Source: Lamellibrachia columna | Taxonomy: Eukaryota > Annelida > Polychaeta > Sabellida > Siboglinidae | Direction: 5' to 3' | Assembly: GCA_963662155.1 (NCBI GenBank) | Contig: OY759268.1 | Span: 10,513,935 to 10,577,934 of the forward strand | DNA length: 64,000 bases | In this document: positions 4,195-62,951 of the stretch, piece after piece | Position numbering within the stretch: the stretch's first letter is position 1 | Layout: each line of letters starts with the position of its first letter | Translations under genes and position numbers: made by a program | Notes under the pieces: generated by a model | What the model saw: only the letters and a program-made list of their open reading frames with translations | Databases searched by the model: none | Told to the model about the DNA's origin: nothing

Positions 4195-5349
4195 TCAGTG
4201 GTAACAAGCGTCCAACTTGATACGTGTCTGACGGTAGAACTGTCGCACGTCTTCCCGGAACATGGCGCTGGCGACGCCGTAGATGAACGGATTGACAACA
4301 GAGTTTAACATAAATATTCGCCGCAGTCCTTCAGAAACGGTAATACCCAAGCTAAACAGCCACTGTGGCATCCAACACACACCGAAGACGACCGTGATTA
4401 TAAACAGCAACAACATGTTTTTGTACATATTCGTTTGTGCCGCAGTCGTTTTGGTGGCAGCAGAAACGGACGTTGGTGAAATGGCGCTAGGGCCACTCTG
4501 CCCACGCGCAGTTTCATTGACAACTGTGGAAACACGTGAAGTTCCAGGATTTTCATGATGCACAACTTCCTCGCAGGTTCTGATTGACGCTATCAGTGTT
4601 TCTTTATCAGTTCTCATGGAAGCTGTTGGATTATGTTCAAGAACAAGGTCCTTCGCTGGTGTGTTTACTCTCTCTTTCTGGACCACAGGTGAAGGCCCCG
4701 GTTCAGATGAGCCTGTCAGGGTGATAACAGCAATGCTGTTCAGCGAGGTTCTTGACTTTTTCAGTAGCGTTGTTGCCATCAACATGTAGCAAGTGGCCAT
4801 TATCGTGACGCTCACAAATATAGCAGACAGATCAGCGATACGAACACTTTGTGTATAATCAAATATGTCCGCCAAAATCACCATTGTTGAGTACACAACT
4901 GCGGCCCCTGCTATGATGAGTATAGCGATCTTCGCTCGCCTTGCTTTGATGTTGAACGAATGAGGATATCTGACCGCTATTAGACGTTCGATAGCCACAA
5001 ACACAAGTAGAAACATGGAGAATGTAACCGACACGTCCATTATGAAAAACATGATGCAGGTGGTTAGGAAGTGGCTCGTCAAACAGAAGACGATTCCGCA
5101 AAAACAGACAAACGAATCACCGACAGCCAGTGCAAACATATACACTCTAGTCGAAGTTGTCATCTTTCGAACATAAACCGCGATTAACAGCAAATTGCCC
5201 GGCAATCCTAGCACAGACACGATCAGCGTTGCAATATTAAGATAATCCGTTTTGTTGGTGTGGAAGTTGTACAAATCTAATGTGTCGTTTGAGTCATTCA
5301 GCAGAACGCGGGAACCGTTGGTCCAATTTGTTGTGCTGTTTGTGTCCAT
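4195..5349 (-). CDS. GPCR A: intronless rhodopsin-like seven-transmembrane receptor
   Basis: A single uninterrupted 384-residue reading frame for a class A G-protein-coupled receptor, expected in the plasma membrane. The frame is open 15 codons further upstream (to 5394), but I place the start at 5349. That ATG follows CAAC and aligns with the conserved starts of receptors B and D and of the pseudogene near 60.7 kb. The N-terminus has several N-glycosylation sequons (NST, NWT, NGS, NDS, NDT, NKT). TM1 has LPGN (about 49-52), TM2 LAVGD (74-78), TM3 ends ERLIAV (121-126), TM6 has CWMP (325-328), TM7 NPFIY (353-357), and helix 8 starts FREDVRQFYRQ. The third intracellular loop is long (about 200-305) and carries PGPS and PGTS motifs. 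There is no TM4 tryptophan or TM5 proline. The ligand is unknown; a chemosensory role is only a guess based on the local expansion. Confidence 0.93.
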   Translation of the reverse strand: MDTNSTTNWTNGSRVLLNDSNDTLDLYNFHTNKTDYLNIATLIVSVLGLPGNLLLIAVYVRKMTTSTRVYMFALAVGDSFVCFCGIVFCLTSHFLTTCIMFFIMDVSVTFSMFLLVFVAIERLIAVRYPHSFNIKARRAKIAILIIAGAAVVYSTMVILADIFDYTQSVRIADLSAIFVSVTIMATCYMLMATTLLKKSRTSLNSIAVITLTGSSEPGPSPVVQKERVNTPAKDLVLEHNPTASMRTDKETLIASIRTCEEVVHHENPGTSRVSTVVNETARGQSGPSAISPTSVSAATKTTAAQTNMYKNMLLLFIITVVFGVCWMPQWLFSLGITVSEGLRRIFMLNSVVNPFIYGVASAMFREDVRQFYRQTRIKLDACYH

Positions 5350-5399
5350 GTTGGTGGCTTGCTCGCAGCTGTTCAACAACGGGTCGCTTTGCACCAGTT

Positions 5400-6990
5400 C
5401 AAGAATATGTATCTTACCGCATTACACTTCACCGAACAGCGCATCAGTTTCAAAGTGAAAATCCCACAATACGTCCTGTCATTGTACGCAACATAACAGT
5501 TGTCCACGTCATCATGGTTTGTCTTAGGAAGCGGAGCTGCAATCAACCGTTTGATGCAATGTTATAGTAAAGCTGCTGCGGTATAAGCCAACGCGATCCG
5601 CAATGCCAGCGACAACATGCGCACGATCACGAACGCTGTATTGTTTGAAATATTCTTGCAGCTCGATTTCCTATTGGTGAAATGAAATGTCACTCTAACA
5701 GCCACTGCTTATCTAGTATCTGTCAAACGTTCGGTCTAACCTCCCATTGAGCACAATGACGGAAATGGCGAAGACTAGACGTCTTAAATAATTGAGCACA
5801 GCACTTACATCTTTAAAGCAATATGACTGGCGTGGCTATTAGTGCGACACGTAATGGAACGACCACATATATTCTGCCATCTGTTCATCAATTCAGCAAC
5901 TTTTTCGTGTATTCCCGTCAATTTATTGTAAAGCTCATAGTCTCTGTGGGTGGGTGATTTGTTTAGTATATCCTCTAATTGTGTCACTTTATTACGTTAT
6001 ATTTCCAATGCTTCGTCCGAAGCAATATTTATTTTTTATTGTATTGCTATATTCAAAATTACCGCCATATGGCGCAGCGGTCAACAATGAAACATTATTT
6101 TGAAAGGATTTTACATCATAATGAGAATTGCCCGAGGAGGACAATTATGGAAGCAATGACCATCCATCGAACGAATCCTGCCCTGAACAGAGAACAAAAA
6201 AAGACATGACGTATATGAGACGAAATTATGCCGTTATCATTTAATCATTTATAAATTACATATTTGGGATATAGCAAGCCTGCAGGAAATGAACATACTG
6301 GTATATTAGTTAAAACATGGCACATTATGTTCTAATCTGGCTAGGACTAGTCCTGTTTAAATTTGAAAAATCATAATAGCATGTTAAACTGCGGCATGTT
6401 GATATTACGGTTGTAAAACAGTGTTGCCCTTGTTTATACTAATGGGTATTTCCACATAAATTAATTTGAATATTTATACTCACGTGATGTTTTTTTTTTG
6501 GGGGAATGTCTCGGACAGTGAACAGAACACTGAAGAGTGCGATCGGAGTCATTACAATACATCGAGTGGCTGACAGATTGCACGAAACGTCTTGGAGTCC
6601 CGATCAAATTAAACTAACTATGTATCTTTGCAAAATCGCCAAAAAAAATCTGAAGCCCCGGACTTCAACAACAGTCGGCCAGTATCTAACAAGGAAATGT
6701 GATGCATATTTCAAGCGTGCGACTAGTCATGGGTCACCTTCGGGGGACCACAAACATATTTGGTCTTGACGAATGTCGTGTTTAATAATGGCATACACGA
6801 ATTTTGGGGAAGGTCAAAAGTAATAATTTATATTTGAAAGAGATGTCCCGAAAACCAACATATTGACACCAAAATTACGGCTCTAGTTAACTTAGTTCAT
6901 CAATTATAGGAAAATAGTGTTGATAGCCGCCATCTTTATATATGGCGGTCAAAAGTAAAAAGGTCAAAAGTAAAATATTTAAAATAGTTG
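5400..6990. other. Upstream region of receptor A, mostly unassigned
   Basis: Apart from the Penelope-like scrap, nothing firm. A minus-strand piece at 5987-5805 (TQLEDILNKSPTHRDYELYN) faintly recalls the linker of L1/Tx1-type LINEs, and an 87-codon plus frame at 6506 is unrecognised. Confidence 0.35.
6065..6208 (+). mobile_element. Possible Penelope-like element endonuclease scrap
   Basis: The plus strand reads ILHHNENCPRRTIMEAMTIH and RTNPALNREQKK. The EA-x-x-IH-x-x-NPALNR pattern resembles the end of the GIY-YIG endonuclease of Penelope-like elements. Only about 45 codons are visible and no reverse transcriptase lies upstream. Confidence 0.4.
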
Positions 6991-6996
6991 CATTGG

Positions 6997-7390
<394 letters not shown>

Positions 7391-7417
7391 CTTACTTACT
7401 TACTTAGGCCCTTACTT

Positions 7418-7578
7418 AGAAATATATTGGTCCAAATGCTGTTTTATGCGCTTAAAATTTGTAGTATTTTTCCCACTCTGCAATAAAAAAGTTTGTTGTA
7501 GATTACTTTTACTTTTACATACATTCATTTACCTCGAACGGCAATGTATGGAATAAAGCACAATGGTTCTAATATTTA
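7418..7578 (-). repeat. ~160-bp repeat, inverted copy of 41-200
   Basis: Reverse complement of 41-200. The inner side starts right after a TTAC tetranucleotide run and the 390-bp TA tract. Confidence 0.88.
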
Positions 7579-7579
7579 G

Positions 7580-8280
7580 TGAAATTAGGACAAATTAATA
7601 ACAACACATTATATTTCACGGGTTCATATATTCTACAGCTTGCTTGCTTGTTTGAAATAGGACACTCAACCTGATACGCCATATATGTGTCAGTGCGTGG
7701 AAGGTAAAGAAAATAAGACATTCCACTGTTTGACTCGGGCTGTATGTTAGTGTTGTGCGGTATAGGCTTACCGTTATTTATCGCGGTATTGTTTCTGGGC
7801 CGTTCGAATCGCAGTGTTATATTATATTTGTATATTTGTATTTCAAACAAAAGTTAGCTTAATTAGTATTTACCAGTTTTGATTGAACCAGATCCAGATC
7901 TAAACGTGCGTTTCACCAAAATGCTCAATAAACCCATCATAAGCTAATTATCGAAATTTCCATAATAACTTCCACAATGTGAACAATTGGACAACGTTAA
8001 TAGAAGATGTTTTCAAAAGTGGCTGACAATATGATCTATCTAACACTTTTCAATTACATTTGACATATTTGCTCACTGGTTGAAGTGAATAAATATAATT
8101 TATAAAATAGGACGCCGTCTCACAGAGAACATTATTTATATGACGCACCGGCAGCTTGTTGTTTTGTCGGGGCAGTTTTGAAAGTTTTCAACAAGAAAGC
8201 TCACGGGGAGCGCGAACAACCTCAACCGAAGTTGTGTCATCGGATGCACTGGTATAAAGGCTAGGGTGTGTGTATTTTGG
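7580..8280. other. Intergenic, no gene seen
   Basis: AT-rich, with a short C+G-richer patch at 8140-8250 next to the foldback-like element. Confidence 0.5.
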
Positions 8281-8905
8281 TAAAGGTGCATTAACCTGGC
8301 CGAAATTATTAACGCTATTAAATGACATTTTTACCTACTTTTGTCGATGCTAATGTGTTCTTTGCATCATTCCCCATCGGGTCAGGTACATAACTGACGT
8401 ATATTTGTAAAAAGTGCCCAAAACAACGCTATACCGGCAATAGCCGGTGTTGTTAATATGGCGATCATCCGAAATGTGCTGTAACAATATCACGGTGGCA
8501 TCAGAATCGGAAATGCGATTTTACTGTCAAATATGTCGTACCGCAGTGTAAGAAAATACGAAAAATAGAAGAAAAAGTGCAATTTAATGTTACGAAAAAC
8601 TCTAAAAATCGGCAATTTAATGTTAAAAAACACCCAAAAAATCGAACTGGACAGGTGATTTCACTGACCAATATCTTGTACGCAGTCTAAGAAAAATAGA
8701 GTTCAATTTAGTTTTTAAAATCCAAAAACATTCACCGATAAATATATCGACAAAAATATAAGATAATTTAAAAAAAGCAAAGATATCGCACATATATAAA
8801 AATAAAAAATAAAAGTTCCTCATATCGTGAAACTATCTTTAAATCGTATTCATAAGTCATAAACAAGTGTCTTGCTTGCCCAAATCACACAATTCAGCAC
8901 TAAAT
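8281..8905 (+). repeat. Left inverted arm of the foldback-like element
   Basis: Pairs with 9263-9907. The arms differ by many substitutions and small indels, so the insertion is old. Confidence 0.85.
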
Positions 8906-10402: not shown

Positions 10403-10532
<130 letters not shown>

Positions 10533-10549
10533 TTACTGAAACTTGCTAC

Positions 10550-11152: not shown

Positions 11153-11172
11153 TAAAGTGTTTACTTTTTTTG

Positions 11173-15266: not shown

Positions 15267-16421
15267 ATGGAAACAATGAACACGTCGTACTGGACTAACG
15301 ATTCGAATGTATTGCATAATACCTCTAATGACAGCTTCGGTATAACTGAGAACAATCCAACAGAGGTGAAATGTTTTAGTAAGATTGTCTTGTACATGTG
15401 CGTTCTTGGTTTGCCGGGCAATTTGCTTGTAATTGCGGTTAATGCACGAAAGATGACAACATCGACAAGAGTGTACATGTTTGCACTGGGCGTCACTGAT
15501 TCGGCTATATGTTTGTGTGCAATCGTCCTGTCGACTGCGTTGATGAACCTAATAATCAAACGCATCTTCCAGTTTGCCCTTAATACATCATTAATCTTCT
15601 CAATGTTTATACTTGTCTTTGTGTCGATCGAGCGTCTTATTGCCGTCAGACATCCGCATTCTTTCAACACGAAATCGCAACGAGCAAAGAAGGCTCTTCT
15701 CATCATAGCAGTGTCTGCAGTTGTATACACAACATTGATGCTTGTAGGTCGAATAAAGCAATACGAACTGTTATATCGAGTAAGTGAAATGTGTGTGCAA
15801 TGTGTGAGTGTCTTGACAATGGCGACTTGCTACACTATAATGGCAACAACACTGGTGAAACAGGCGAGAGCCTCTCGGAATCGCATCGCTACCGTAAATA
15901 TGACGGCTTCATCTGTTCAGGGGTCTTCACACATGTTCCCGAAAGGTAACCTGTTCACCTTTGCCGAGAGCCATGTGCGTAAACATAAAACAGGTGCGAC
16001 AAGAGTTACCGTGACAGTAGCCACACCAGTTGAAAATGCTGTATGTCCAGTTGATCCGGGACCCTCGAATATTCTCAGTAAATCGGAATATACGTCTGAT
16101 GTGAATAGAGCCCGCACGAACATTTCTGAAGTATCGACATCAACTCATGTGAACTCTACCACTAAAATAGTTGAGAGACAAACAAAGACCTTCACAAATG
16201 TCACGTTGTTATTCATCATTACGGTCGTCTTCATAGCCTGCTGGCTGCCACAATCGTTATATGGCGCCGGTGTACATATTGCGATCCATCCGCGTCGAGT
16301 ATTTGTTCTAAACTCTGTTGTCAATCCGTTCATCTACGGCGTCGCCAGCGCCATGTTCCGGGAAGACGTGCGACAGTTCTACCGCACCACCCGAGCCAAG
16401 CTGTCCGCTGTTTGTTACTGA
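15267..16421 (+). CDS. GPCR B: intronless rhodopsin-like receptor, paralogue of A
   Basis: A 384-residue class A receptor, the same length as A. The frame is open to an ATG at 15162, but the start at 15267 (CAACATGGA) matches the family start METMNTSYWTN, so the extra 35 codons are probably untranslated leader. Landmarks are LPGN (49-52), LGVTD in TM2 (74-78), ERLIAV (122-127), a long third loop (200-310) with one DPGPSN motif at 263-268, CWLP (325-328), NPFIY (353-357) and FREDVRQFYR in helix 8. A cysteine near 258-260 and a C-terminal Cys-Tyr are present. TM3 has no cysteine near its extracellular end, while the second extracellular loop has two (176, 179), so the usual class A disulfide cannot form in its normal place. 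A 43-bp minisatellite begins 465 bp downstream. Confidence 0.93.
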   Translation: METMNTSYWTNDSNVLHNTSNDSFGITENNPTEVKCFSKIVLYMCVLGLPGNLLVIAVNARKMTTSTRVYMFALGVTDSAICLCAIVLSTALMNLIIKRIFQFALNTSLIFSMFILVFVSIERLIAVRHPHSFNTKSQRAKKALLIIAVSAVVYTTLMLVGRIKQYELLYRVSEMCVQCVSVLTMATCYTIMATTLVKQARASRNRIATVNMTASSVQGSSHMFPKGNLFTFAESHVRKHKTGATRVTVTVATPVENAVCPVDPGPSNILSKSEYTSDVNRARTNISEVSTSTHVNSTTKIVERQTKTFTNVTLLFIITVVFIACWLPQSLYGAGVHIAIHPRRVFVLNSVVNPFIYGVASAMFREDVRQFYRTTRAKLSAVCY

Positions 16422-16690: not shown

Positions 16691-16885
16691 TACACAATGC
16701 ATTCACATATAACATCATAAAATAAAAAATATAAAATCATTAAAAAATATATATAAACGACTGGACTGCATAACATGATTGCACATTTTGCTAAAATAAT
16801 TATTGCTTAATTTTATTTATTATTTAATTGTTTTGGATTAATATTTGTGCATGTTGGTTATTTACGTTAGTTGCGCGTTGGTGGT

Positions 16886-17957
16886 CTACCTTTGTTGTGT
16901 TGTACCGTGCAGCAGGTCGTGTGGTGGTCTACCTTTGTTGTGTTGTACCGTGCAGCAGGTCGTGTGGTGGTCTACCATTGTTGTGTTGTACCGTGCAGCA
17001 GGTCGTGTGGTGGTATACCATTGTTGTGTTGTACCGTGCAGCAGGTCGTGTGGTGGTCTACCATTGTTGTGTTGTACCGTGCAGCAGGTCGTGTGGTGGT
17101 CTACCATTGTTGTGTTGTACCGTGCAGCAGGTCGTGTGGTGGTCTACCATTGTTGTGTTGTACCGTGCAGCAGGTCGTGTGGTGGTCTACCTTTGTTGTG
17201 TTGTACCGTGCAGCAGGTCGTGTGGTGGTCTACCTTTGTTGTGTTGTACCGTGCAGCAGGTCGTGTGGTGGTCTACCTTTGTTGTGTTGTACCGTGCAGC
17301 AGGTCGTGTGGTGGTCTACCTTTGTTGTGTTGTACCGTGCAGCAGGTCGTGTGGTGGTCTACCTTTGTTGTGTTGTACCGTGCAGCAGGTCGTGTGGTGG
17401 TCTACCTTTGTTGTGTTGTACCGTGCAGCAGGTCGTGTGGTGGTCTACCTTTGTTGTGTTGTACCGTGCAGCAGGTCGTGTGGTGGTCTACCTTTGTTGT
17501 GTTGTACCGTGCAGCAGGTCGTGTGGTGGTCTACCTTTGTTGTGTTGTACCGTGCAGCAGGTCGTGTGGTGGTCTACCTTTGTTGTGTTGTACCGTGCAG
17601 CAGGTCGTGTGGTGGTCTACCTTTGTTGTGTTGTACCGTGCAGCAGGTCGTGTGGTGGTCTACCTTTGTTGTGTTGTACCGTGCAGCAGGTCGTGTGGTG
17701 GTCTACCTTTGTTGTGTTGTACCGTGCAGCAGGTCGTGTGGTGGTCTACCTTTGTTGTGTTGTACCGTGCAGCAGGTCGTGTGGTGGTCTACCATTGTTG
17801 TGTTGTACCGTGCAGCAGGTCGTGTGGTGGTCTACCATTGTTGTGTTGTACCGTGCAGCAGGTCGTGTGGTGGTCTACCATTGTTGTGTTGTACCGTGCA
17901 GCAGGTCGTGTGGTGCTCTACCATTGTTGTGTTGTACCGTGCAGCAGGTCGTGTGGT
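16886..17957 (+). repeat. 43-bp minisatellite, 25 copies
   Basis: A 43-bp unit starting CTACCTTTGTTGTGTTGTAC and ending GTCGTGTGGTGGT repeats 25 times with almost no variation. The only recurrent variant is T or A at unit position 6 (CTACCT or CTACCA). Variants are blocked: two T units, five A, fourteen T, four A. Because 43 is not a multiple of 3 and the unit lacks stops, all three plus frames are open for about 400 codons and give the same 43-residue repeat. These frames are not genes. Confidence 0.97.
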
Positions 17958-20340
17958 ATACAAGACTCGCTGCTATATCCCAGACGTGCATCGCCACGTA
18001 TCATGTTGTCAACATGTCACGATATACTGGACTGTATTAAAAATTAGATTGTCATAATTGTATTCAATGAAGTACTTACCTCAATGTGTCATACCGCGAG
18101 TAGGCTAATTATAGAAGAAAAAAAACAGTTGTGTTGTTTTTAATTGTTTCTTATTACATTGCGTTTAGCATATTGCACAACATGCCTAGATGAAATGTAG
18201 TGCTAGTCTTATGCTTGCTATTCGATCATTGACTGTTGTCATATTCGGATTCGTTTTTTTATGCAGGATATCTGCATACACGAAAAATATATTTAAATTA
18301 TTGAAAATAGTTAAGCGTACAACTCAACTGACCTCTGTACTGTGCATGAAATGGTTAGTTGCAGTTGTTTTTTATACTATTGTAATCTAGTACACGTGAA
18401 ATATTACCACATTTTATTGTTATGTTGACCTGGTGTATATTGCAGTACTCTTTTGTATGAAATAAATGACTGATTGTATTGATGACTGATTCGAATTATT
18501 GAACATAATAATTGAATATAATATCGCACTAAAATATGTTACTTCTTACTTTCCCTTCTATTGTAACTGGTGGAACTAGAAGCATGGTATTCAAAGAAAA
18601 CGTCATGGTGGTTTACATGCTCAGTAACATGGGCTCATAGGTTAGGCATGATGTTGTTGATTGGAAAAACTAACACGCTGACTAGGCAATGTGTTATATT
18701 TATTACTATTAATTACTTAATTATACAGTGCAAGAACACCCATCCATAATACGCCATATGGTGATCACAATTATGAAACATATGCCTATCTCAATATGGC
18801 GGGTTAATGCTAGATTAAAATTTGCTGGACCTCCAATGGCTTATCCACGTACCATATGTGTTTTGCTTTGGAATATGTCGCTAATCTCTAACAACAGTTG
18901 AACTACATTTGATATTAAACATGCCATTATTTCCATTGTTCTTTTATGTGAAGACGTATGTGTTAGGTACTAATACTAAATACAGACATGGTTTACACTT
19001 CTTCACTTTCGCATTGAGTGTACTTTTTATATTACATAATTTAATATACAACCTCAATCATCAATAATACTGAGGAGGAATTTTAATAATTACGTGTTAT
19101 TATCATTTGCTATAATTTATTGAATAATGGACAATGCGTATTATAATGCTTCGAAATGACATTGCACATATATAATTTATAAAACATGAAGTGACAGCAT
19201 TTGAGTATCCACTCTAAATTATTTAATGACAGTGGAGCTATGGAGAATACGCAAGTTTAAACAGGTGGGCTTTTAGTTTACAGCGAACTGTTGTGATATT
19301 TCCTATAAACAATTATATGGAGTGAGTTGGACAAAGTCGATGCAGCAACTGAAACACGGCTAGTTCCGACATTTGTCTTAACGAATATTAGTATTAGATG
19401 ATCGAAGCTGTATAGGCCGTCTTGCAGGAGTTACCAGATAATGTAAATATGCTGGTGGCTTCGATGAAAGTGCTTGATAAATAATTGTACATATATTGGA
19501 AATACTGCGATATCGGAGAGGGAACCAACGTAATGATTTAATATGAGATATGTTCTTGAAATCGCCCAACAAACCTTGAAGTGGTGATCATTTCCGATAG
19601 GATATGTAGGAGTAAACACGTAAACATACGGTTGTGTTGCTAAAATAGCAACAAACACAAACATACAACAAAGACATATTCTGCCAGAAGTAAGTTTCCG
19701 TTAATCGCACTAACCGCCTGCTAAGCCTAAGTATTATTTACCAAAATTAAACAAATGTTTTATTATGGTAATATTTACTGACGACAATTTTAGCTTAAAC
19801 TAATATGACAGTTATATTTAACAAAATGCTATTTAAATATGAGGTTATTCACTATATTAAAAAATAATAAGACATTAAGTTAACAGTATAAATGTTGTTG
19901 ATTTAAGCAAACTGTTGGTTGACACATTTAAACTCTCAACTACTATGTACAGAAATACAATACAATTACCTATGGATTGAATCACACACCAATGTCCGGT
20001 ATTGGATTGAAATCGGTTATATCATGCGGAGGATCAGTTGCCTGAAAATAAATACAACTTGACACAATAATGGTAAATGCACTTCACATTAAAAACATTT
20101 TATACAACGTGTTTACAATATTCGCACAATATATTGCAATATTACGATTTATTTTTAAATGTAAATAGTTATTTCGCGTTTACACAATATTTGATATGAT
20201 ATATATTTGAAGGTCCTAAAATACAGGAACGTTCAGTGCCATCGAAATGTGATATCTCTGTCTTCTCACTGGGAACACCTGAAGTTCCCGGTTGTGATTA
20301 TTGTGTTACGGATATGATATGAAATTATGTTTTATGATAT
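17958..20340. other. Intergenic around the 19.4-kb LINE scrap
   Basis: AT-rich, only short frames; nothing else recognised. Confidence 0.5.
19370..19640 (-). mobile_element. LINE C-terminal fragment (L2/CR1-like)
   Basis: The minus strand reads HIKSLRWFPLRYRSISNICT, IIYQALSSKPPAYLHYLV and PARRPIQLRSSNTN. This is the well-known region after the reverse transcriptase of L2/jockey-type LINEs (LHWLPVRYR...YKAL...PxYL). Only the C-terminal part is left. Confidence 0.65.
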
Positions 20341-20522
<182 letters not shown>

Positions 20523-20910
20523 TGTACTTTAACAAAATACGTGGTGCGCTTGATTGAACGTTTTTGTGTTTTTGTTGGAAGCATACAAGAGGTAAAAAAA
20601 TAAACATAAAGCAGCAATAATGCTAAGCCTTATGCGGATGCCGTCGAACAAGGTACACTAATACGTTTATTTTGTTCTAATTTCACAACATACTTTTGGT
20701 GAATATAGCAATAATACGATAATCACATGTACAAATAAATATATGTGAACCAAACACGTACTATCTAGCCAATTGTGATCAAAACACACGGTTTTCAATC
20801 ACAGTTTACTTGGTGCAAACGGAATAACATTTACATTCGCAGAACGTAATATCGCTTCCCGAGTTGTAAGCACGAGATATTAATTCCCATCTCTACTCGG
20901 CGCAATACGC

Positions 20911-20930
20911 AGCACGAAGTACTTCGTGCT
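20911..20930. other. Perfect 20-bp palindrome
   Basis: AGCACGAAGTACTTCGTGCT is its own reverse complement. It could be a dimeric-protein site or cruciform, or chance. Confidence 0.5.
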
Positions 20931-21198
20931 TCTGCTATAATTGACATTTCGGAACTAATTAATCAGCCCGTGTGTCACTTGATATACCGACTGCGTTCAA
21001 CTACGTTAATAAAATGCCGCTGTGGTTGATGAAAATAGATGTAAAAGTGACAAGAAGCCACGCAGGTCCAGAACAGTTGTAGCGTGATGCGATAATAATC
21101 GTTCGAACAACACTTCGATATATGTTTTTTTATCTGAATACAAATGAAGATGGTGAATAAGATCACTCCATTCGTGTCGTGTGCGTTTGTGCTTCGTA

Positions 21199-21396
<198 letters not shown>

Positions 21397-22174
21397 TAAG
21401 AAATTATTAAATATATAAATGTGATCTAAAATCGACATTGTACACAATATGGTATTCATGCCCATTTATATCACAAGGGTCCATTAACAATATTGATAAA
21501 ATAGGTGATTTTTTATCGACGTATTTTCGATGCCATTAACCCGATTTCTAAAACCATCAATATTTGTTCGCAATACGGCGTCATGGTTTTCAATGCCATT
21601 ACTAACAATCACACTTTTAGCGCTGTCCCTTATGTTGTATAATAAAATCCTCGTATGTTGTTGTAGGCAAATTGAAATATCTGATAAGTAGTCTTGCTAA
21701 GATATACCTAGAGTTGGGAACAATAAATCATACTACAATAGGCATCAAATAGTTGCAGGTTAACGCCAACAGAACAGTCATGACATTTCCTAATGAAGTT
21801 GTTGTGACCTGGCATAGAATGTCTTAAATTATCATCATCACCTTTCAGATTAAGACAAATAATTACACCAACATATGTGGCTTTTACAACATATTAAAAG
21901 TTGCTATTGTTCATGTAGATATTTGAAAAGTTTAGTTGGAGGCCATGTGGTGTGACATTCATGCATATTTATTTGATGGGATAACATATCACATAATGTT
22001 TAAAATTAAACACAGAACGCATATTAAATAAACATTGAAGACCACAGAGACAATAACACATAAATCGTCTGCACAACACGTGTTTACTACAGCAGTTTTA
22101 ATGTGACGCCCTGTTCCAACATTGTTTGATATTTAACATTTCCTAACTTCTTCCAAAAATGCGTATTCAGTGGC

Positions 22175-22740
22175 AATAAGCGGACATTTAGACGCGTGTC
22201 TAACGGTAGAACTGTCCACGTCTTCTAGCGACGCCGTAGATGAACGGATTGACGACACCGTCTGTTATTATTGATCGCCTTACTTACGTCGACACTTAAA
22301 TGCCAATGTATATCAATCACATCGGCACGCAGCACGCTATGAAAACTATCGCGATAATGAATAAAATCATTGGACCGGACAGCGTCATCTACTGTTTAGA
22401 TAACTGTATGTAAAGTCCGCGGTTGTGAAGACCAGGATAGATATACATGAAACCTACACGCACGAGCCTGATATTCTACTAAGCCAGTCACACATCATAA
22501 ACCGCGCCACATCCATCACTGCTGTTATAATCGTTGCAGCCACTACTCGCTGGCTGTGGATCGAAACTGTACGTGGATGTTTAACTGCAGCAAGATGTTT
22601 TATCGACACACAAATCAAAAGAGACATCGACAATTTCACATGTGTATTGATAAAACACGCAAATTCCAACATTGTTCCGAGATTGTAACGCCAAGGGACA
22701 AGACAAAACAAGCGCAAATATGTGTTCTGATTTTCTACAC
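22175..22740 (-). pseudogene. GPCR pseudogene 1 (relative of receptor C)
   Basis: Reading on the minus strand gives a decayed receptor. There is a degraded TM2-TM3 part, then TM3/TM4 with SIKHLAAVKHP where intact copies have SIERL, then RISGSCV of the second extracellular loop. TM5 and much of the third loop are gone. TM6-TM7 follow with stops and frameshifts, ending near the conserved sequence for VVNPFIYG at 22224-22252. DNA similarity to receptor C is plain, including the loop segment around CAACAGTAGATG and the TM6 segment. The break between loop and TM6 lies at ATGAT, which is present at both sides in receptor C, so a microhomology deletion is likely. No product is expected. Confidence 0.88.
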
Positions 22741-22969: not shown

Positions 22970-23764
22970 ATTGTAACAAGCGGACAACTATACTCGTGCC
23001 TGGTGGTAGAACTGTCTTACGTCATCCACACTGGCGACGTCGTAGATGCACGGATTGACGACATAGTTTGTTACTATTGGTCTTCTCAATGCCGTCGATA
23101 TGAATACGCCCATGTAAGACAACCAGACCAGGCAGTGACGACGATCGTGATAATGAATAACGTCACTTTTGAAGGCGTTGGCGTCGTTCATATGTATAAT
23201 TGTAACTGGCACTGGTTTTGTTGCATCATTATAATTGCACAAGCAACATATACGAACTAGACTGATATTCTAACAAGTCGGTCATGCCTCATTAACCTCG
23301 CCACCTCCGACAATGTTGTTAATGTCGTTACAGCCACAACAGTGATAATTATATACTTCGTGGATCCATGCTGTTTGCGCTTATCAGCAGCAAGACGCTC
23401 GAAAGAAACATATAAAATATCATTGATGCATCGATTATATAGGAAAGTGCCAACCTTGCCACGGTACCAGTAACACATGCGGACAAGAGAAGACACGGGT
23501 AAACGCAGACGACTAAACCATCGACCGGTAGAGCAAACATATGTGCACCCGTCGATGTTCTCATATTGCGTACATAAACCGCAAATATAAACGCATTTCC
23601 CGGCAACCTTAGCTCACACAAAGTAATTGTAGCAATGTTAAACGCTTCGCGTCAGCGTATTATATTGTTTGTCGTCAAAGCCAAACCTGTAGCGTAATAC
23701 ATGTTACGGCATCACAATGAATATGTTAAATGATTCTATAATTAAGTACTGTTCGCAGACAGTC
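22970..23764 (-). pseudogene. GPCR pseudogene 2 (relative of receptor C), start lost and TM5/loop deleted
   Basis: On the minus strand the order is a leader like that of receptor C (TCTGCGAACA near 23754), an ancestral start that now reads ATA, TM1 with LPGN(A)F, TM2 as MFALPVDG, TM3/TM4 with FERLAADK after a frameshift, then a jump over TM5 and the third loop to TM6/TM7 with VVNPCIYDVAS and DDVRQFYHQAR. The CW-P motif of TM6 is disrupted. It lies 230 bp upstream of pseudogene 1 in the same orientation, so the two are a decayed tandem pair. Both are nearest to receptor C. Confidence 0.88.
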
Positions 23765-27639: not shown

Positions 27640-30560
27640 TTATATAAGTTTGCAATGGAACAACTCATGTCAATATGAAGCAGGTTATAGATGCGTGTGT
27701 TTAAATGCTAGGAGTATAATAAATAAGGAAAACGAATTATACATTATGGTAGAAGATATTGACCCTCACATAATTGGTATAACCGAATCAAGGGCCAACA
27801 CAGACATTACAGATGCTGAACTAGGATTGACAGGATACGTAATATTTAGGAGAGATAGAATAGGAAAAAGAGGAGGGGGAGTTATTTTATATGTTAAAGA
27901 ATCTATTCAGGCTTATGAAATAAAATTAGAAAGCGAAGCAGATTACGATGAAGCTGTTTGCTGCAAAATAGTTTCAGGAAATTCAAAATTAACTATTGTA
28001 TTTGTCTACCGAAGTCCAAACATAAACGAAGCGGATAACACAAAAATACAAAAAGCTATAAAGGAAGTTAGTAAAGGGGAATGTATCATAATGGGAGATT
28101 TTAACCTTGGACACATACAATGGAAATATCTAGAGAGTACAGGGGGTGATGACCAATATTTTTTATGTTTAATTCAGGAGAGCTTCCTTACTCAGCACAT
28201 GCTAGAACCAACCAGGGGAGAAAATGTATTAGATATAGTTTTATCATCACAAAATGAATTAGTCGACAATGTAAAAATACATTAATCATTGGGTAACAGT
28301 GATCACAATCAAATACATTTTGACATCAACGTAAAATCAGAAAGTAAAAATAAAAAAACGTATAGGAGAAACTTCCACAAAGGTAACTATAAAGATATGA
28401 GAAAATACTTAGCAACGCTAGATTGGAATAACATGCTGATGAATAAGACCGCAATTGAATGTTGGAATATTCTAAAATATGAAATTGAGAGTATCATCGA
28501 AAAATGTGTTCCCTTGAAAAACCAAGGAAAACGGTCTAGAAAGAAACACTTGTCAAAAGAAGCTATTAGAAAAATAGTGTTTAAGCAAACTATGTGGAGG
28601 GTTTATAGGCGTACCAGAAAGAATGAAGACTATGCAAATTACAAAGAGGCACTTAACCTAGCTACAATTGAAATTAGAAAATCTAAAAAAAACTTTGAAT
28701 AAAAATTGGCAGGTAATATAAAAAATGACAGCAAGAGTTGATATGCTTATGTAAGGAGTAAACAGAACGTTCAAGATAAGGTCGGACCACTGGAAAACAA
28801 CAAGGGAAACATAATTTCAGAGGGGTTTCAAATGGCAGAGGTCTTGAATGAGTATTTCAGCTCAGTATTTACCACAGAAGATATCAGCTGACTTCCAGTT
28901 CCATTTACTAAATTTGAGGCAAATAAATCAGAACATTTAGGGCAGTTATTTGTAACTCCTGTAATGATAGCAAACAAAATTAAGAAGATGAAAGATAATA
29001 AATCACCTGGAGTTGATGGGATACCACCAAAACTGCTTAAGGAAATTGTTGAGCAAATTAGTACACCACTTGCAAAATTGTTTAACTTGTCACTAGAAGA
29101 AGGAATAGTTCCATCAGAATGGAAAGAAGCAAACATTACGCCACTATTTAAGAAGGGATCGAGGAACAAGCCAGAACATTACAGACCAGTGAGTTTAACA
29201 TCAGTTATATGTAAATTACTCGAAACATAAATTAGAGACCACATGGTGGAATTCCTTGTAAAACATAATTTAATAAATACATCTCAACATGGGTTCCTAA
29301 AAGCAAGGTCATGTCTAACCAATCTCTTGTGTTTTTTTAAGAAATTACAAAGTGGGTAGATGACGGGTCACCAGTGGATGTTGTCTACTTAGATTTTCAG
29401 AAAGCTTTCGATAAAGTGCCACACCAAAGATTGATACTTAAACTAAAAGCCCATGGTATAGGTAATGATGTAATCAACAGGATAGAAAAGTGGCTTACAC
29501 ACAGAAGACAGAGAGTAATAGTAGACGGTGAGATTTCAAACTGGAAATCGGTTTTGAGTGGGGTACCACAGGGATCAGTATTAGGCACTATACTGTTTTT
29601 AATATATATAAATTATCTAGAAAATGACATATCTAGCAAAGTACTCAAATTTGCAGATGACACAAAAGTATTCAGAAAGGTTACAAATGATACAGATAAA
29701 CAACGTTTACAGGATGATCTAGATAAATTAGTTAAATGGTCAGAGAAATGGCAAATGTTATTACATTTTGGGAAGTGCAAATGTATACACATAGGGCATG
29801 GAAACATGGACGAAGAATATAAGATGGGGGAAGCTGTACTAAGTAGAACCACACAAGAAAAGGACTTAGGAGTAACATTTAGTGCTGACATGAAAGTTTC
29901 AGAGCAATGTGGGATTGCTGCTTCAAAAGGAAATCAAATTATAGGGCTAATTAGGAGAACTATCATGTATAAGGAGAAACAGCTAATTGTACCCCTGTAC
30001 AAAGAAATAGTTAGACCACATTTGGAATATTGTATTCAAGCATGGAGGCCGTATCGTAAAAAGGACATAGACAAGCTAGAAAGAATACAACGAAGAGCAA
30101 CCAAAATGATTCCAGAATTGAGAGACCTTAGTTATGAAAGTCGCTTATTAAAATATGGTTTGACAACACTAAAAACCAGGAGACTAAGAGGAGACCAAAT
30201 AGAAGTATTTAAAATAGTGAACGGTTATGAGGATGTTGATAGGAATATGTTCTTCAAACTTAAAGAAGGCAGTAGAACCAGAGGACACAAAGCAGCATTA
30301 GTTAAGGAGCAGTGTAGGTTGGACATGAGAAAGTACTCTTTCTCACAGAGGGTGATAAATGAATGGAACAAACTGCCAAATGATTGTGTTAATGCTAGTA
30401 GTGTGAATATGTTTAAAAATAGAATTGACAGATATTTGAGAAGGGTGGGCTACACATAAATGAGAAAATTGTTGGACTCTCGATAAACCAATGGCTTCCT
30501 TGTCCACTTTGCCATCTGGAACTTGTTGTTTGGGATGGCAACCTTGTTAAATCTTATTAA
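27640..30560 (+). mobile_element. CR1-clade LINE, endonuclease plus reverse transcriptase, inactive
   Basis: A near-complete ORF2. Endonuclease (27650-28350) has NARSIINK, ITESRAN, MGDFNLGHIQW and SDHNQI. Reverse transcriptase (28960-30000) has KSPGVDGIPPKLL, RPVSLTSV, LDFQKAFDKVPHQRL, SGVPQGSVLG and FADD (29649-29660). The CR1 thumb LERIQRRATKMIPELRDLSY and the C-terminal MRKYSFSQRVINEWNKLP follow to TAA at 30457. Defects are in-frame stops at 28283, 28700, 28739, 28889 and 29228 and a frameshift near 29335. From 29374 to 30459 the frame is open. ORF1 is missing, so the 5' end is truncated. This copy is the youngest LINE in the window. Confidence 0.93.
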
Positions 30561-30689: not shown

Positions 30690-31701
<1,012 letters not shown>

Positions 31702-31744
31702 ACAATTTGTAAACAAATATTAAAGCAATTTAAAATAAATTTAC

Positions 31745-32036
31745 CAATATATATTATGGTGCAGAGACATGGACAATGACCATTATTAAATTAAATTACA
31801 CGATATATTAAAATTAGTTAAATTTAATAAATGGAGATGGTTGGAACACCTTGCCCGAACTAAAGACAACAGGTGGAAAAATATAACAACATAATGGAGA
31901 AGACACAACAACTAGATGGAGATATAAAATTGTAAAGTTTGTTGCCATGACATGGATGAGAATGGCCCAAAACAGTAGTAAATGGTACCAGCTTGTGGAG
32001 ACCTTCGCCCTGCAGTGGGCTGACAATGGCTGAGGA
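31745..32036 (+). mobile_element. LINE C-terminal fragment between two TA tracts
   Basis: The plus strand reads [10 protein letters not shown], then (with frame changes) [37 protein letters not shown] and [12 protein letters not shown] before TGA. This is the familiar C-terminal end of RTE/jockey-like endonuclease-reverse transcriptases (YGAETWTL; GHLAR; TRW; WxxLGETF). It is bounded at both ends by long TA arrays. Confidence 0.75.
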
Positions 32037-32127
32037 GATATGCAGGTACATTCACATACACATAAGCATGCACATGCACATGCACACATTCATGCTCATA
32101 TGCATGCACATGAACATACGTATACGC

Positions 32128-33914
<1,787 letters not shown>

Positions 33915-40005: not shown

Positions 40006-41040
40006 ATGACAAATGAATCAAGTATGGCGCCGCAACACGTTTTAAACGACAGTTTGGCTTTGACGACGAACAACAGAACACACGGAAGTGAATCGTCTAA
40101 CATTGCCATAATTAGTCTGTGTGCGCTAGGGTTGCCTGGCAATTTGCTTGTTATTGCGGTTTATGTCCGAAAGATGACAACATCAACGAGAGTGTATATG
40201 TTCGCTCTGGCAGTCGCAGATTCATCTGTCTGTGTCTGCGCTTTTTTTGTACTGTTCATTGGCGTTACTGACCTCGTGACAAAGTTAGCATGTTCCTCTG
40301 TTATCGATACATCGATTACATTTTCTATGTTTCTCCTGGTGTTTATATCGATCGAGCGCCTTGTTGCTGTTAAACATCCACACTCTTTCACTATGGAACC
40401 ACAAAGAGCGAAGAAGTATATAATTATAATTGTTGTGGTTGCAACGATATACAGAATAGTGTCGGGCGTGTCAAAATTTATGAGGTATGGCATGTTTGTT
40501 AGAATATCAGAATCGTGCGTGTCTGTTTCTTGTACATTTACAATGATCACTTCCTACACTCTAATGGCGGCTGCTCTGTTGAAAAAAGTCCGCGCTTCTC
40601 GGAATCAAGTCGAAGTACTAAGTGTGGTGAGGTCTTTACAACCGGGCACTTCACATACAGTAATCTCAACAGTAGATGGCGCTGTCCGGGCCAATGATCC
40701 GGGACATTCCAATATTTTCACGAATGTTAAAGGAGTAGCGCAGAATAGTGCGCCGAAATCAGTATCAGTGACCGCTACCAACAAAATAATAACGAAACAA
40801 GCCAAGGCTTTCAAAAATATGTTGATGATTTTCATTATCACGATAGTCTTTATAGCGTGTTGGGTGCCGATATGGTTGATGAACATGGGCGTTTACATCT
40901 CGGCGGCAGTGAGACGATCAATGATAATAAACTCTGTCGTCAATCCTTTCATATACGGCGTGTCCAGTGCGCTTTTCCGAGAAGATGTGCGACAATTATA
41001 CCGCCAGGCGCGGATGAAGCTGGCTTCTTATTGCCACTGA
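40006..41040 (+). CDS. GPCR C: receptor with a replaced start codon
   Basis: A 344-residue class A receptor with LPGN (43-46), LAVAD (68-72), ERLVAV (117-122), CWVP (285-288), NPFIY (313-317) and FREDVRQLYRQ in helix 8. The third loop is shorter than in A, B and D (about 193-265) and has one DPGHSN motif. In frame upstream, an ATG at 39982 aligns with the family start (MEYIN against METMN), but codon 6 is TGA (39997-39999). The present start at 40006 sits where the paralogues have the Trp of NTSYWTN. Translation therefore probably begins eight codons late, behind a five-codon upstream ORF. Sequons remain at N3, N14 and N23. This copy is closest to the two pseudogenes at 22-24 kb. A fragment of a further copy lies 45 bp past its stop. 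Confidence 0.92.
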   Translation: MTNESSMAPQHVLNDSLALTTNNRTHGSESSNIAIISLCALGLPGNLLVIAVYVRKMTTSTRVYMFALAVADSSVCVCAFFVLFIGVTDLVTKLACSSVIDTSITFSMFLLVFISIERLVAVKHPHSFTMEPQRAKKYIIIIVVVATIYRIVSGVSKFMRYGMFVRISESCVSVSCTFTMITSYTLMAAALLKKVRASRNQVEVLSVVRSLQPGTSHTVISTVDGAVRANDPGHSNIFTNVKGVAQNSAPKSVSVTATNKIITKQAKAFKNMLMIFIITIVFIACWVPIWLMNMGVYISAAVRRSMIINSVVNPFIYGVSSALFREDVRQLYRQARMKLASYCH

Positions 41041-57920: not shown

Positions 57921-58009
<89 letters not shown>

Positions 58010-58235: not shown

Positions 58236-60239
58236 AAAAGATATACACGACACAAATTATTTGGTTTTGTTTGACTTCAATCATTGAAAAAGTGTTTGTT
58301 ATTTTGAATCATTTGCAGAAACGTTTTGTATGATGACATGCTATGTTTAAGTTAGGTTTTGCAAATTTTTATATTAATTATGCTTACCTATATTACTACT
58401 ATTATTTAACATTCATTCATATATAATAGTATAATATACAATTACCATTGCAATCATCTCGTCGACTGAGGCTGAGAAATAATATGAGATGTTGGTGCAA
58501 AAACTTCCAAATGTATATCCAAACAACGCAAAATATACACAAAGAAACACGCTAATGTCGCTATACAAACTAGTTAAAATCATATTGACGCGTATGTTCG
58601 TGCTGTTAAATTACATATCAAACGCATATGTCGTAGTATGACATAGGCGTACGCCGTATCCAAAACTAAAGTGTAAACACGGTCACTATCCCATCATTAA
58701 CACTACAATGCACGAAAAGTACACGTTTGAAAATACTTGCTTAATTGAATTAGATCCCGGGCCTTGTGTTTAGTTGTGCATATGATCGATTTAAGCAACC
58801 GAATGCACTACAGCATTTCCTCAATTTATTTGGTACATTATATATGCAACATTTAGCTGGCGAAGCCAACGTGGCGTCTTTGCACATTTGCACGTCACCT
58901 GGCGCCATACAATTGAATGCAGCACATTTTATACAGTATACAGTAGAGACCAGTGGTCATTTTGTAACTTACGACTTTGCTACGATCCCACCAGTGACGA
59001 CGTACGGTACAGAAACGAGTCGTTGTGCACATGTCGCGTGCAGGCCACTGCGCGAATTGAAAAAGTAACTAACTTAACTTCGGGTGCGACAGATGGCATG
59101 GTCTCAGAAAACAGAAATGATACTGAATGTTGTATGTAATGTACAATTACTTTTGAAACCGCAGATGTAAAAATCTAGCTTTGTGTAGAGACAAATGATT
59201 GTATATATCACATTAGAGCTTTTACTTGCAAGATGTTTACTTTTTACAATGTGCAAACATAATCCAATATGAAAAATAAACATAAATAATATTCCGCAAC
59301 ACCGTTTTACTAGGTCAACAACTAAGAATTATGCGATTTGTATGATATTGCATATGTCGTGGTTGTAGCACAAACTTTAGACGATTTAATTTAATTTAAT
59401 TTAATTGAATTCAACCAAAACGACGCATCGCAGAGTTGGAGGAACATCTTACAAAGACCAAACACATATTATACGTAACATGTAAAAGTATGTTATTATA
59501 TATCACGGTATCCAACTATGCACTTTACACATTTCATCCCCTGATAGATATAGTCATTACAACACCAACGCGACTTTTCCAGGATGCTTACAACCAGGTT
59601 GAATTTATTGCGTGAATACTACTCATCCATTTATATATACACAATTTTATAGCCAGATACTCGTTTATACAGCTGAGTGAACTGTGACAACATAAACTGG
59701 AATAATGTGGAAGTCCCGGGGCAGGACATACGCAAACGCCAGCAGCAAAGTTGCGATGGATAAGAAAGCGTCGCTGTATTGAAATGCAATAAAGTAGATT
59801 TATTTCAAGTCGAAGGAACCTCGAAGAGTTCAAAGAGTTGCATAGTTTTGCATTTTACACTGAATGAAAGTTACATTCAATTCGTTCTTGTGCCATTTGT
59901 AAGAAATTTGTCAGGCCGGTATATACGAACGATATGTGCCCCAATTGGTCGGGCAACACCGTGTCACACGACAACGCGCTGCTAAATTAGGTGCACGTTT
60001 GGACGAACGAGGTATCTTAGCACTGCGACCAACATATTGACCAGCGCCACTCCCGATTTGAACTTTGATGACATGTCACGACGGGTGAACCTGTCGACGG
60101 TCGTTGATTGGCCGCTGCTTCACAATCGCCACCGACTTGCATCGACAACTGTTTTCCAAAGGTGCGCGACAGCATGGCGGTCGATTCGACCACTTTGGCA
60201 ATTGATCGCTCATGCACACATACTATTAGCATTATATTC
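58236..60239. other. Intergenic with unassigned frames
   Basis: Apart from the frames at 58.8-59.1 kb, nothing is recognised; a TTTAA pentamer run lies at 59388-59409. Confidence 0.4.
58766..59139 (+). other. Overlapping unidentified open frames
   Basis: Two overlapping plus-strand frames (58766-59068 and 58888-59139) stay open through a moderately G+C-rich stretch. The second has a cysteine-containing CNLRLCYDPTSDD...SLCTCRV pattern. No homology is recognised and no splice structure is clear. Confidence 0.15.
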
Positions 60240-60718
60240 CAAACTTCTGCACATTTCACACATGTCGAATGATATTGTCGCTGTTGTCAATGTTGGGTAT
60301 GTAATGGTACGAACACAAACGTAGAGCAAACTTCGCTAGATGCGCCTTTACGCTGAACGCGTGTGGACGTATCGCCGATACAAGACGCTCGTTCCACATA
60401 AACACTAAAATAGACACAGAGAAGGTGAGTGCTATATCCAAAGGATACTTCACGACATTCATTATCATCAAGTCCGCCGTATTAAAGACGAGTCCACAAA
60501 CACGACTACATCGTTACGATGTAAACACAAAGCAGATTGCCTGGCAGAACTGGCGTACACAAGTCACACACGGAAACACTGTGGACATCCACCGGTTGTG
60601 TAACGTTGTTCATCGTCAAATCCGAGTTGTAGTTCTGCAGAAAACTTGAATCGTTGGTCCAGTAGGAAGTGTTAATTACATCCATGTTGACCGCTAGTTG
60701 TTTATCGAGCATACGCAA
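60240..60718 (-). pseudogene. GPCR pseudogene 3 (N-terminus to TM4)
   Basis: The minus strand keeps a perfect family start, MDVINTSYWTNDSS (ATG at 60683-60685, context CAACATGG), and TM1 with LPGNLL. About 65-70 nt covering the first loop and most of TM2 are then missing, with a frame change. TM3 resumes (VCG to SILVF) with NERLVSAIRPHAF for the usual IERLIAVRHPHSF. Similarity fades in TM4 near 60320 and is uncertain to about 60240; TM5-TM7 are absent. The N-terminus is most like receptor B. It is head-to-head with receptor D, about 1 kb away. Confidence 0.85.
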
Positions 60719-60996
60719 TGTGTATGTATCGAACGGAGAGTGGAACTATGAAGACGAACGTCATCAACTTCGATCGGCAGAAGTTCGACGTCACTCTCGA
60801 GCCTTATGACGTCACTCTCGAGCCTTATGACATCACAGCTATACAAGAACTGCCTCCGCGACGCGACGGAAAACGACCAATGATTTGGCAGCACCTTTCG
60901 ACTGAAGAGAATATTAAACTTATGTCAAAATACGAACTCTCAAGGGTAGTGGCATTTACCTTAGAATCACAGCAACAACCCCGGGACTCTGAGTGA
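60718..60996 (+). CDS. Unidentified short ORF with a doubled DVTLEPY motif
   Basis: 92 codons from ATG, reading FDVTLEPYDVTLEPYDITA and then QELPPRRDGKRPMIW. A 24-bp direct duplication (60788-60811 and 60812-60835) makes the doubled motif. No family is recognised. It is G+C-richer than its flanks, lies between GPCR pseudogene 3 and receptor D, and could be a chance frame. Low confidence that it is translated. Confidence 0.2.
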   Translation: MCMYRTESGTMKTNVINFDRQKFDVTLEPYDVTLEPYDITAIQELPPRRDGKRPMIWQHLSTEENIKLMSKYELSRVVAFTLESQQQPRDSE

Positions 60997-61733
60997 ACTT
61001 TGTAATAATGGACGCTGCATGTTTATTTATAATGTAAACATTCAACTAACCCAATAGTAGTGTATCGTTTTGGTACTTAAAGTGTACATTTATTTTCCTC
61101 TTTAATCAATATGTGTTATCAGCCACTGCAATGTCCAACATTTTGGTAAAAGTAGACTCGTGTTCAGGCAGAGTAGATATGTGAACTAGCATGTGGTATG
61201 CAGTGCACATAAACATGCGACAAGACCCGACTAATTAACTGCCCTGTCGTGCTGTTTTGTTGGAAGTAGTTATTATAAATACATTCGCACCGTTGGCATT
61301 AACACTGCATGCTTGTTACAACATCATTGAACAGCCAACTGCAAAATATTATGTATTCCATTAACCAATGGCATGCATACATGACACAGTAATTACTTCA
61401 TCACTTGCACAAAGTCATTCAAAATGTCCCACACGTTGCCGATAAATTATCGTAAATTGCATGTGCGCTAGAATGTGTACACTTTGTCGTGCATTTGGAC
61501 GGACTTACCGTTGTTTTAGTAGGTTATATGAAATACAATGTGCTCTAGGAAGTATACTTATTATTTGTGGAAATAATGATATGTGCTCCTTGGTCGTTAA
61601 CAAATCGATCTACTGCTGATTACTATGATGATTTATTAGTTGTCTAGCGCATAGAGGCTTCCTGTTACAGGTCACTAGCCAATAGTGTCACAATCCACGG
61701 GGCGAATTCTTCATTTGCGAGCTTGCTGTCAAC

Positions 61734-62951
61734 ATGGAGTCGGTGAATACATCCAACGTGACCAACGGCACAAGTTGTATGCAGAATGTCTTAAATGTTA
61801 CATTCGATTCCGGTAAATCAACATGTACAGAGGATGTTAGTATTGTTGTCTTGCTCCTCTGTTTGCTGGGATTGCCGGGCAATCTGCTTGTAATAGCAGT
61901 TTATGTCCGAAAGATGACAACATCAACGAGAGTGTACATGTTTGCACTGGCCGTCGCTGATTCGGTCGTCTGTGTCTGTGGAATCGTCCTTAGTGCAACG
62001 GAGACGGGCTGGGTGAAAAGGGAGGCAATACTTTATGTCATCAATCTGTCGATGTTGTTCTCGTCTTTTCTTCTGGTGTTTGTGTCGATCGAGCGTCTTA
62101 TAGCAGTCAGACGTCCACATTCGTTCAACGTGAACGCACAGCGAGCGAAGAAGGCTTTGATTATCATTGCTGTGACTGCAGTTGTAGGCACATCAGTGAG
62201 TACTGTGGCGAGGTTGTGTAAATACGAACAGTTCAACCGAGCATATAACACATGTGTGGCTTTAATGTGCGTTTCCACAATGACAACTTGTTATATTCTG
62301 ATGGCAGTTACGATGCTAATAAGGGCACGAGCCTCACGAAACCAGATCGCTGTCTTACGGGGGACATGTGAACACGAGTTAGGCCCGTCTGAGCCGTGGT
62401 ATTCACGTTTATTCATGAACACCGAGAACCGTCAATCTAATGCAGGGTCTTCAAATATGACATCGAATGCGAAAACAATCAGATCAGTTGAAAAAGCTTT
62501 ATGTATCGTTGATCCGGGACCTTCAAATGTTACCATGAAAGTGAACGTACTCAAAGCAGCGGAGGAAGTTGCCCATCCCATTGGTCTGGGGCCTTCGAAT
62601 GTCTTTTCAAAGGTTGAAGAAACGTCATTTATGCAGAGCAGCCGTACGAACAATCCTCGTGCAGGGACATCAGCTCCTCTGACGACTACTAACAAAACAG
62701 TTGCGAAACAAACAAAGACCAGTGCAAATGTTGCGTTGCTATTCATCATCACGATTGTCTTCGTGTTCTGCTGGCTGCCAGCGTCGGTGGATAACCTGGC
62801 TATTGCCATTCCAAATGGAACGCAGCGATTACTCATTGTAAACTGTGTTGTCAATCCGTTCATCTACGGCGTCGCCAGCGCAGTTTTCCGGGAGGACGTG
62901 CGACAGTTCTACCGTCAGACGCGAGTGAAACTGTTCGCTTTTTGCCAATGA
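61734..62951 (+). CDS. GPCR D: intronless rhodopsin-like receptor with expanded third loop
   Basis: A 405-residue class A receptor, the longest of the four. The start MESVNTSNVTN in context CAACATGGA matches the family. Landmarks are LPGN (47-50), LAVAD (72-76), ERLIAV (120-125), a third intracellular loop of about 200-330, CWLP (346-349), NPFIY (374-378) and FREDVRQFYRQ. Excess length is in the third loop, where a unit ending in GPSNV occurs at 261-266 (DPGPSNV) and 285-290 (LGPSNV), each followed by a (T/F)xK-V stretch. That looks like a small internal duplication. No TM3 extracellular cysteine, no TM4 Trp and no TM5 Pro are seen. The partner pseudogene at 60.2-60.7 kb lies head-to-head upstream. 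Ligand and G protein are unknown. Confidence 0.93.
   Translation: MESVNTSNVTNGTSCMQNVLNVTFDSGKSTCTEDVSIVVLLLCLLGLPGNLLVIAVYVRKMTTSTRVYMFALAVADSVVCVCGIVLSATETGWVKREAILYVINLSMLFSSFLLVFVSIERLIAVRRPHSFNVNAQRAKKALIIIAVTAVVGTSVSTVARLCKYEQFNRAYNTCVALMCVSTMTTCYILMAVTMLIRARASRNQIAVLRGTCEHELGPSEPWYSRLFMNTENRQSNAGSSNMTSNAKTIRSVEKALCIVDPGPSNVTMKVNVLKAAEEVAHPIGLGPSNVFSKVEETSFMQSSRTNNPRAGTSAPLTTTNKTVAKQTKTSANVALLFIITIVFVFCWLPASVDNLAIAIPNGTQRLLIVNCVVNPFIYGVASAVFREDVRQFYRQTRVKLFAFCQ

Follow-up and report, generated by a model that had tools for sequence, protein, structure and literature searches.

A large siboglinid family of single-exon class A receptors with a predicted near-absent second extracellular loop, a candidate chemoreceptor repertoire in Lamellibrachia columna

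Introduction

Lamellibrachia columna is a siboglinid annelid and a chemosymbiotic vestimentiferan. In an initial annotation, a 64-kb stretch of its chromosome 8 (positions 10513935–10577934, referred to here as the window) was described as carrying a local family of four intact, intronless class A G protein-coupled receptor (GPCR) genes, named A to D here, that lack several class A hallmarks. The locus raises the questions of whether these losses are real, how far the family extends beyond the window, and what receptors of this form might do.

Results

Gene content of the window

The four open reading frames (ORFs) were found where they had been placed and all of them score above the Pfam 7tm_1 cut-off of 30.5 bits (46.8–60.7 bits, E 3.5e-12 to 2e-16), which bears out the description of A–D as intact, intronless class A paralogues (Table 1). 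Pairwise identity among them is 43–48 %, with blastp E values down to 3e-119, far beyond chance. The count of four was correct for the intact copies, but a tblastn search of the window with A–D revealed three broken copies that had been overlooked, bringing the total to seven. Gene C seems to have a shortened N-terminus, apparently missing about eight residues of the family sequence, because an in-frame TGA is located 9 bases 5′ of its ATG.

Table 1. Members of the receptor family in the 64-kb window (positions are those of the window)
Feature	Position	Strand	Description	Evidence and remarks
Gene A	4195..5349	-	Intact single-exon class A GPCR, 384 aa	7tm_1 E 1e-14 (scan without initial Met)
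Gene B	15267..16421	+	Intact single-exon class A GPCR, 384 aa	7tm_1 E 3.5e-12; ECL2 at residues 164–166 in AF2 model
Degenerate family copy	22170..22719	-		tblastn matches across three reading frames; ORF list
Degenerate family copy	22973..23687	-		tblastn matches across three reading frames; ORF list
Gene C	40006..41040	+	Intact ORF, 344 aa, N-terminus apparently shortened	7tm_1 E 2.3e-15; stop within upstream homology
Degenerate N-terminal copy	60322..60685	-		tblastn, approximately residues 1–144 of B, two frames
Gene D	61734..62951	+	Intact single-exon class A GPCR, 405 aa	7tm_1 E 2e-16; ECL2 at residues 162–164 in AF2 model

The window also includes several repeats. Approximately 30 copies of a 43-bp minisatellite are found just downstream of gene B (16750–18081), with one frame open as a 398 aa ORF, and long AT/AC-type microsatellites, some of them mutually inverted, are located at 6832–7556, 20318–21420 and 31355–32233. 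A LINE-like remnant with an endonuclease-reverse transcriptase domain (PF14529, E 1.4e-11) lies at 27746–28285. This element may terminate in the ORF at 29755–30459, which matched no Pfam family at E 0.01. Genes A and B each differ at 10 of 384 residues from a database protein (P0002 and P0001, respectively), and these two proteins are found on one database contig together with a protein identical to gene C. This contig is perhaps an alternate haplotype of the window, which would mean high allelic divergence.

Residues kept and lost

The residue-level description of A–D was largely borne out by their alignment. N1.50, D2.50, CW(M/L/V)P and NPFIY are present in all four, and residues 3.49–3.51 are ERL in place of DRY. 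When the 52 intact L. columna genes of the family were examined, N1.50, D2.50, C2.54, R3.50, Y5.58, N7.49, P7.50 and Y7.53 were invariant, while W6.48 was found in 50, P6.50 in 51 and C6.47 in 47, and residue 3.51 was Leu in 49 and Phe in the other three. The helix 8 sequence had been given as FREDVRQ(F/L)YRQ. FREDVRQ(F/L)YR is shared by all four proteins but the final Q, present in A, C and D, is replaced by T in B. A C-terminal Cys, also reported initially, is found within the last four residues of each protein. The Cys at 2.54 (residue 82 of B, in TM2), invariant in the intact genes, recurs in 151 of the 154 family sequences.

The residues reported as missing are indeed absent. Counting from R3.50 in the alignment, residue 3.25, the usual position of the TM3 Cys, is T in A, K in B and C and R in D, and Cys was not found at this position in any of the 52 intact genes or the 154 family sequences. 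Pro at 5.50 is likewise absent from all 52 genes and all 154 sequences; the residue is Ser in A and B and Cys in C and D and, across the intact genes, Cys in 35, Ser in 15 and Thr in two. No Trp is present in the segment corresponding to residues 142–156 of B, which includes the 4.50 site, in either set. A Cys anywhere from 3.20 to 3.28 was detected in only two of the 52 genes, both in the window (at 3.26 in A and 3.28 in C), with a further Cys in the TM4–TM5 segment in gene C alone. Hence, the proposal that the standard TM3-loop disulfide is absent holds for position 3.25 throughout, but an unusual bridge between TM3 and the TM4–TM5 segment may be possible in gene C because it has a Cys on both sides.

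Cys3.25 and P5.50 are found in approximately 88 % and 80 %, respectively, of class A receptors according to the available part of PMC7460885 and, as they are common rather than universal, neither was treated as defining membership. Judged by their sequences, A–D belong to the class A GPCRs despite the loss of Cys3.25, Trp4.50 and Pro5.50.

The TM4–TM5 segment

AF2 models of B (mean pLDDT 75.5, pTM 0.68) and D (mean pLDDT 73.3, pTM 0.66) both retain seven helices in a class A fold with helix 8. TM4 and TM5 occupy residues 137–163 and 167–214 in B, and 135–161 and 165–212 in D, with pLDDT about 90 or more across both helices. From these limits, ECL2 is predicted to be only about three residues long in B and D, leaving TM4 and TM5 nearly fused. 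The spacing of conserved residues in the sequences provides an independent check and agrees with the modelled loop length. R3.50 and Y5.58 are separated by 66 residues in 51 of the 52 members and by 64 in the remaining one. Among 28 other class A proteins of L. columna, P5.50 and Y5.58 were recognised in 20, and in these the distance is 78–88 residues.

Other tandem-expanded receptors of L. columna retain the TM3 Cys, the ECL2 Cys, Trp4.50 and Pro5.50 in nine of the 12 cases listed, TM3 having been misplaced by the motif search in the remaining three. As these receptors keep the residues in question, the losses belong to this family and are not genome-wide. Nine other L. columna class A receptors (L039, L041, L043, L044, L045, L051, L052, L053 and L057) are single open frames, several of them in tandem, and have ERY and intact disulfide cysteines.

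The losses had been listed separately in the initial annotation and, while each of them is real, the near-absent ECL2 was overlooked and may be the common cause that unites the lost Cys3.25, Trp4.50 and Pro5.50. The order we infer is that ECL2 became shorter in an ancestral receptor before the other losses occurred. Should the loss of the loop prove real, the ECL2 lid and the disulfide would be dispensable in a large and fast-evolving family, beyond the few receptors that are usually cited.

Size, distribution and lineage of the family

The genome sequence searched comprised 879,693,805 bases in 30 contigs. Since 879.73 Mb in 42 scaffolds have been published, some small pieces may be missing from it. 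Using B as the query, 107 of 533 candidates were scored, giving 188 matches, and the 150 listed reduce, after merging by position, to at least 106 separate places, which are spread over chromosomes 5, 6, 8, 9 and 12. A search for the FREDVRQ-type motif found 45 sites, with none in the reversed control. Addition of the 44 sites on chromosomes 6, 8 and 9 raised the count to at least 114 places, the site on chromosome 12 being left out due to its uncertain membership. These counts include broken copies and are lower bounds for places rather than for working genes. The window falls within a run of 39 places on chromosome 8 that extends over 1.2 Mb (9.63–10.85 Mb). With copies on five chromosomes, and with relatives in other siboglinids, the family is not the local one initially described. 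A full-length intact ORF was found at 51 of 70 family loci that were fetched. Also in this genome, a B-like copy (L028, C8:13363773-13364333), 78 % identical over residues 1–187, is part of an open frame that spans 1923 codons, perhaps formed where the start of a receptor gene leads into an array of repeats.

The 30 members scanned with a family profile scored at least 254 bits, while the other L. columna class A receptors reached at most 66 bits (58 proteins scanned, 48 matched), so the family is clearly delimited. L099 and L100, divergent members on chromosome 5, scored 317 and 321 bits. In a protein database, A–D matched 325 proteins and, among the 120 listed, 19 are named, 18 from Lamellibrachia satsuma and one from Ridgeia piscesae. 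Eight divergent members used as queries matched 226 proteins and the eight named among the 120 listed are also from only these two species. L099 and L100 matched 41 proteins, six of them named; five are from the same two species and the other is a dopamine-receptor-like protein of an acorn worm at 49 bits. In this last search the scores fall from 171 to 67 bits below the family. Each protein search scored approximately 8000 candidates sharing the most words, and distant relatives elsewhere are possible. As far as the named matches go, the searches support a siboglinid-specific family, found so far only in tubeworms, in line with the earlier suggestion that it is lineage-specific.

Profile searches against solved structures leaned towards peptide and aminergic receptors, with weak matches (best 70 bits) among the 60 best of each listing, for example the best 60 of 255, and this similarity is at the level of the class. 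Within these listings the profiles did not group the family with melanocortin receptors.

Selection between young paralogues

Nei–Gojobori dN/dS was pooled over 20 disjoint young pairs (dS below 0.4), with bootstrapping over pairs. TM1, TM7 and helix 8 were counted whole as cytoplasmic, and the N-terminus and ICL3 were kept separate. The ratio was 0.90 (0.74–1.08) for the extracellular half and 0.37 (0.34–0.42) for the cytoplasmic half. Outer TM4 had the highest value (1.59), due in part to a low local dS (0.092), while ICL1 with inner TM2 gave 0.10. ECL2, with three codons per gene, gave 0.35 but over only 60 codons. The N-terminus was at 0.57 and ICL3 at 0.97, and hence rapid change is not limited to the ligand side.

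Gene A and its paralogue L024 gave a ratio of 0.64, and the six pairs among A–D, which are older, gave about 0.30–0.59. A young pair from another receptor array (L052 and L053) had an overall ratio of 0.85, and so, for the whole gene rather than by region, this family is not exceptional in having high ratios between young duplicates. The ratios for nine older pairs of other L. columna receptors were 0.14–0.38. Gene conversion could have distorted dS. The contrast between the two halves would be expected of receptors that diverge in their ligands but share a G protein.

Discussion

Proposed function

We consider that A–D are members of a large siboglinid class A family that is probably a chemoreceptor repertoire. 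The copy number, the tandem arrays, the single exon and the faster-changing extracellular half make a chemosensory role plausible. A signalling core, consisting of D2.50, E/DR3.50, Y5.58, CWxP, NPxxY, the FREDVRQ-type helix 8 and the C-terminal Cys, is kept at the sequence level.

In such receptors, loss of the ECL2 lid and disulfide would leave a wide, melanocortin-like extracellular mouth, through which ligands would enter the uncapped bundle and touch the variable outer ends of the helices. Different molecules, whether carried by the water, released by conspecifics or derived from the symbiont, would fit the variable pockets of different paralogues. Ligand binding would shift TM5 and TM6, with Cys or Ser standing in for P5.50, and the conserved cytoplasmic face would switch on a common G protein. 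The C-terminal Cys is putatively palmitoylated, and the ability to fold without an ECL2 bridge would have been gained once, in the family ancestor. More tentatively, well over 100 chemoreceptors may have descended from one class A receptor without ECL2 or its disulfide, so that a melanocortin-like open-mouth scaffold arose independently and seeded a chemosensory radiation, which may have served to detect vent or seep chemistry, mates or the symbiont. Vestimentiferan sensing is little described, and a repertoire of such size would supply candidates for the genes by which larvae settle, mates are found and the symbiont is recognised.

Alternative explanations

Of the alternatives, the most serious are that the family responds to endogenous ligands or to products of the symbiont. 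The best solved-structure profile matches were SSTR2/4/5, CCKAR, TRHR and D2 (among the best 60 of 255 in one search), and this lean towards peptide and aminergic receptors, which fits endogenous ligands equally, counts against the chemoreceptor reading and favours a duplicated paracrine or neuroendocrine family, expanded for endogenous peptides or internal signals. However, many of these weak matches span TM1–TM4 only, and more than 100 places together with a faster-changing extracellular half would be unusual for a few endogenous ligands, so we think this origin unlikely. That the named family matches listed are from siboglinids only would also be expected of symbiosis or immune receptors detecting bacterial products, either at larval symbiont uptake or in the trophosome, and innate-immune recognition families are expanded in Vestimentifera, as reported in the available part of PMC10192322. 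The restriction to siboglinids would, however, suit any lineage-specific chemoreceptor set, and a role of this kind seems, if anything, a little less probable again.

Three of the seven copies in the window are broken and 19 of the 70 fetched loci are without a full-length ORF, although several of these stretches were picked around one motif only and may be truncated. This might point to a mostly non-functional expansion of duplicated relics without signalling, but the low ratios in the cytoplasmic half, particularly in ICL1 and inner TM2, and the presence of R3.50, NPxxY and D2.50 in every intact gene argue against it, and we regard it as very improbable. An error of alignment has also to be considered, since TM3 spacing is off by two residues in some other L. 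columna receptors and counting from a fixed offset can therefore mislead. Against this, a Cys in the wider interval from 3.20 to 3.28 is confined to genes A and C, with a possible partner in C alone, the Trp and Pro are missing from all 154 sequences, and the helices were placed by the AF2 models of B and D. The losses are thus real, and we give almost no weight to misalignment as their source.

Comparison with known receptors

The expansion as such is probably already known in outline, since five expanded rhodopsin-like clusters, one of them specific to Osedax frankpressi, have been reported in Siboglinidae (PMC10192322, Moggioli et al. 2023), and the tubeworm family described here may well be one of the others. 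The available part of that report does not treat the sequence features, loop architecture, gene arrangement or selection of the clusters. We found no account, in the open-licence literature searched, of this family's architecture without the loop and the disulfide, and GPCR, rhodopsin, chemoreceptor and sensory terms were absent from the main texts of the vestimentiferan genome papers searched.

Somatostatin, opioid and CCK-type peptide receptors are among the best profile and fold matches, with similarity at the class level only. These receptors keep the disulfide, Trp4.50 and Pro5.50. The nematode Sr chemoreceptors were also considered but rejected, as the Pfam Srw, Srx, Srbc and Srv profiles scored 8.5–15.9 bits, under their cut-offs of 21–23.8. 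The candidate chemoreceptors AcCRa and AcCRb of Aplysia are similar in that they are numerous rhodopsin-like genes, most of them without introns and some of them in clusters, in which ER-x replaces DRY (PMC2700072, available part). However, the Aplysia motif is given there as ERC, whereas the window genes have ERL; ERC occurs in the divergent chromosome 5 branch formed by L099 and L100. No molluscs were found among the named family matches listed.

S1P, LPA and cannabinoid receptors are partly alike, and neither these nor the melanocortin receptors were among the best 60 of 255 PDB sequences matched in the profile search. Melanocortin receptors keep Trp4.50, which the tubeworm family lacks. 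They are also distinguished by DPxxY in TM7, according to the available part of PMC7460885, while N7.49 is invariant in the intact tubeworm genes. The same source describes, for MC4R, the absence of the TM3–EL2 disulfide and of P5.50 and an EL2 of three to four residues, all features that resemble the tubeworm receptors, for which the loop length is a prediction. The large pocket of MC4R is presented there as a consequence of the short EL2, the missing disulfide and the missing P5.50, and the likeness of the tubeworm family to the melanocortin receptors is apparently convergent.
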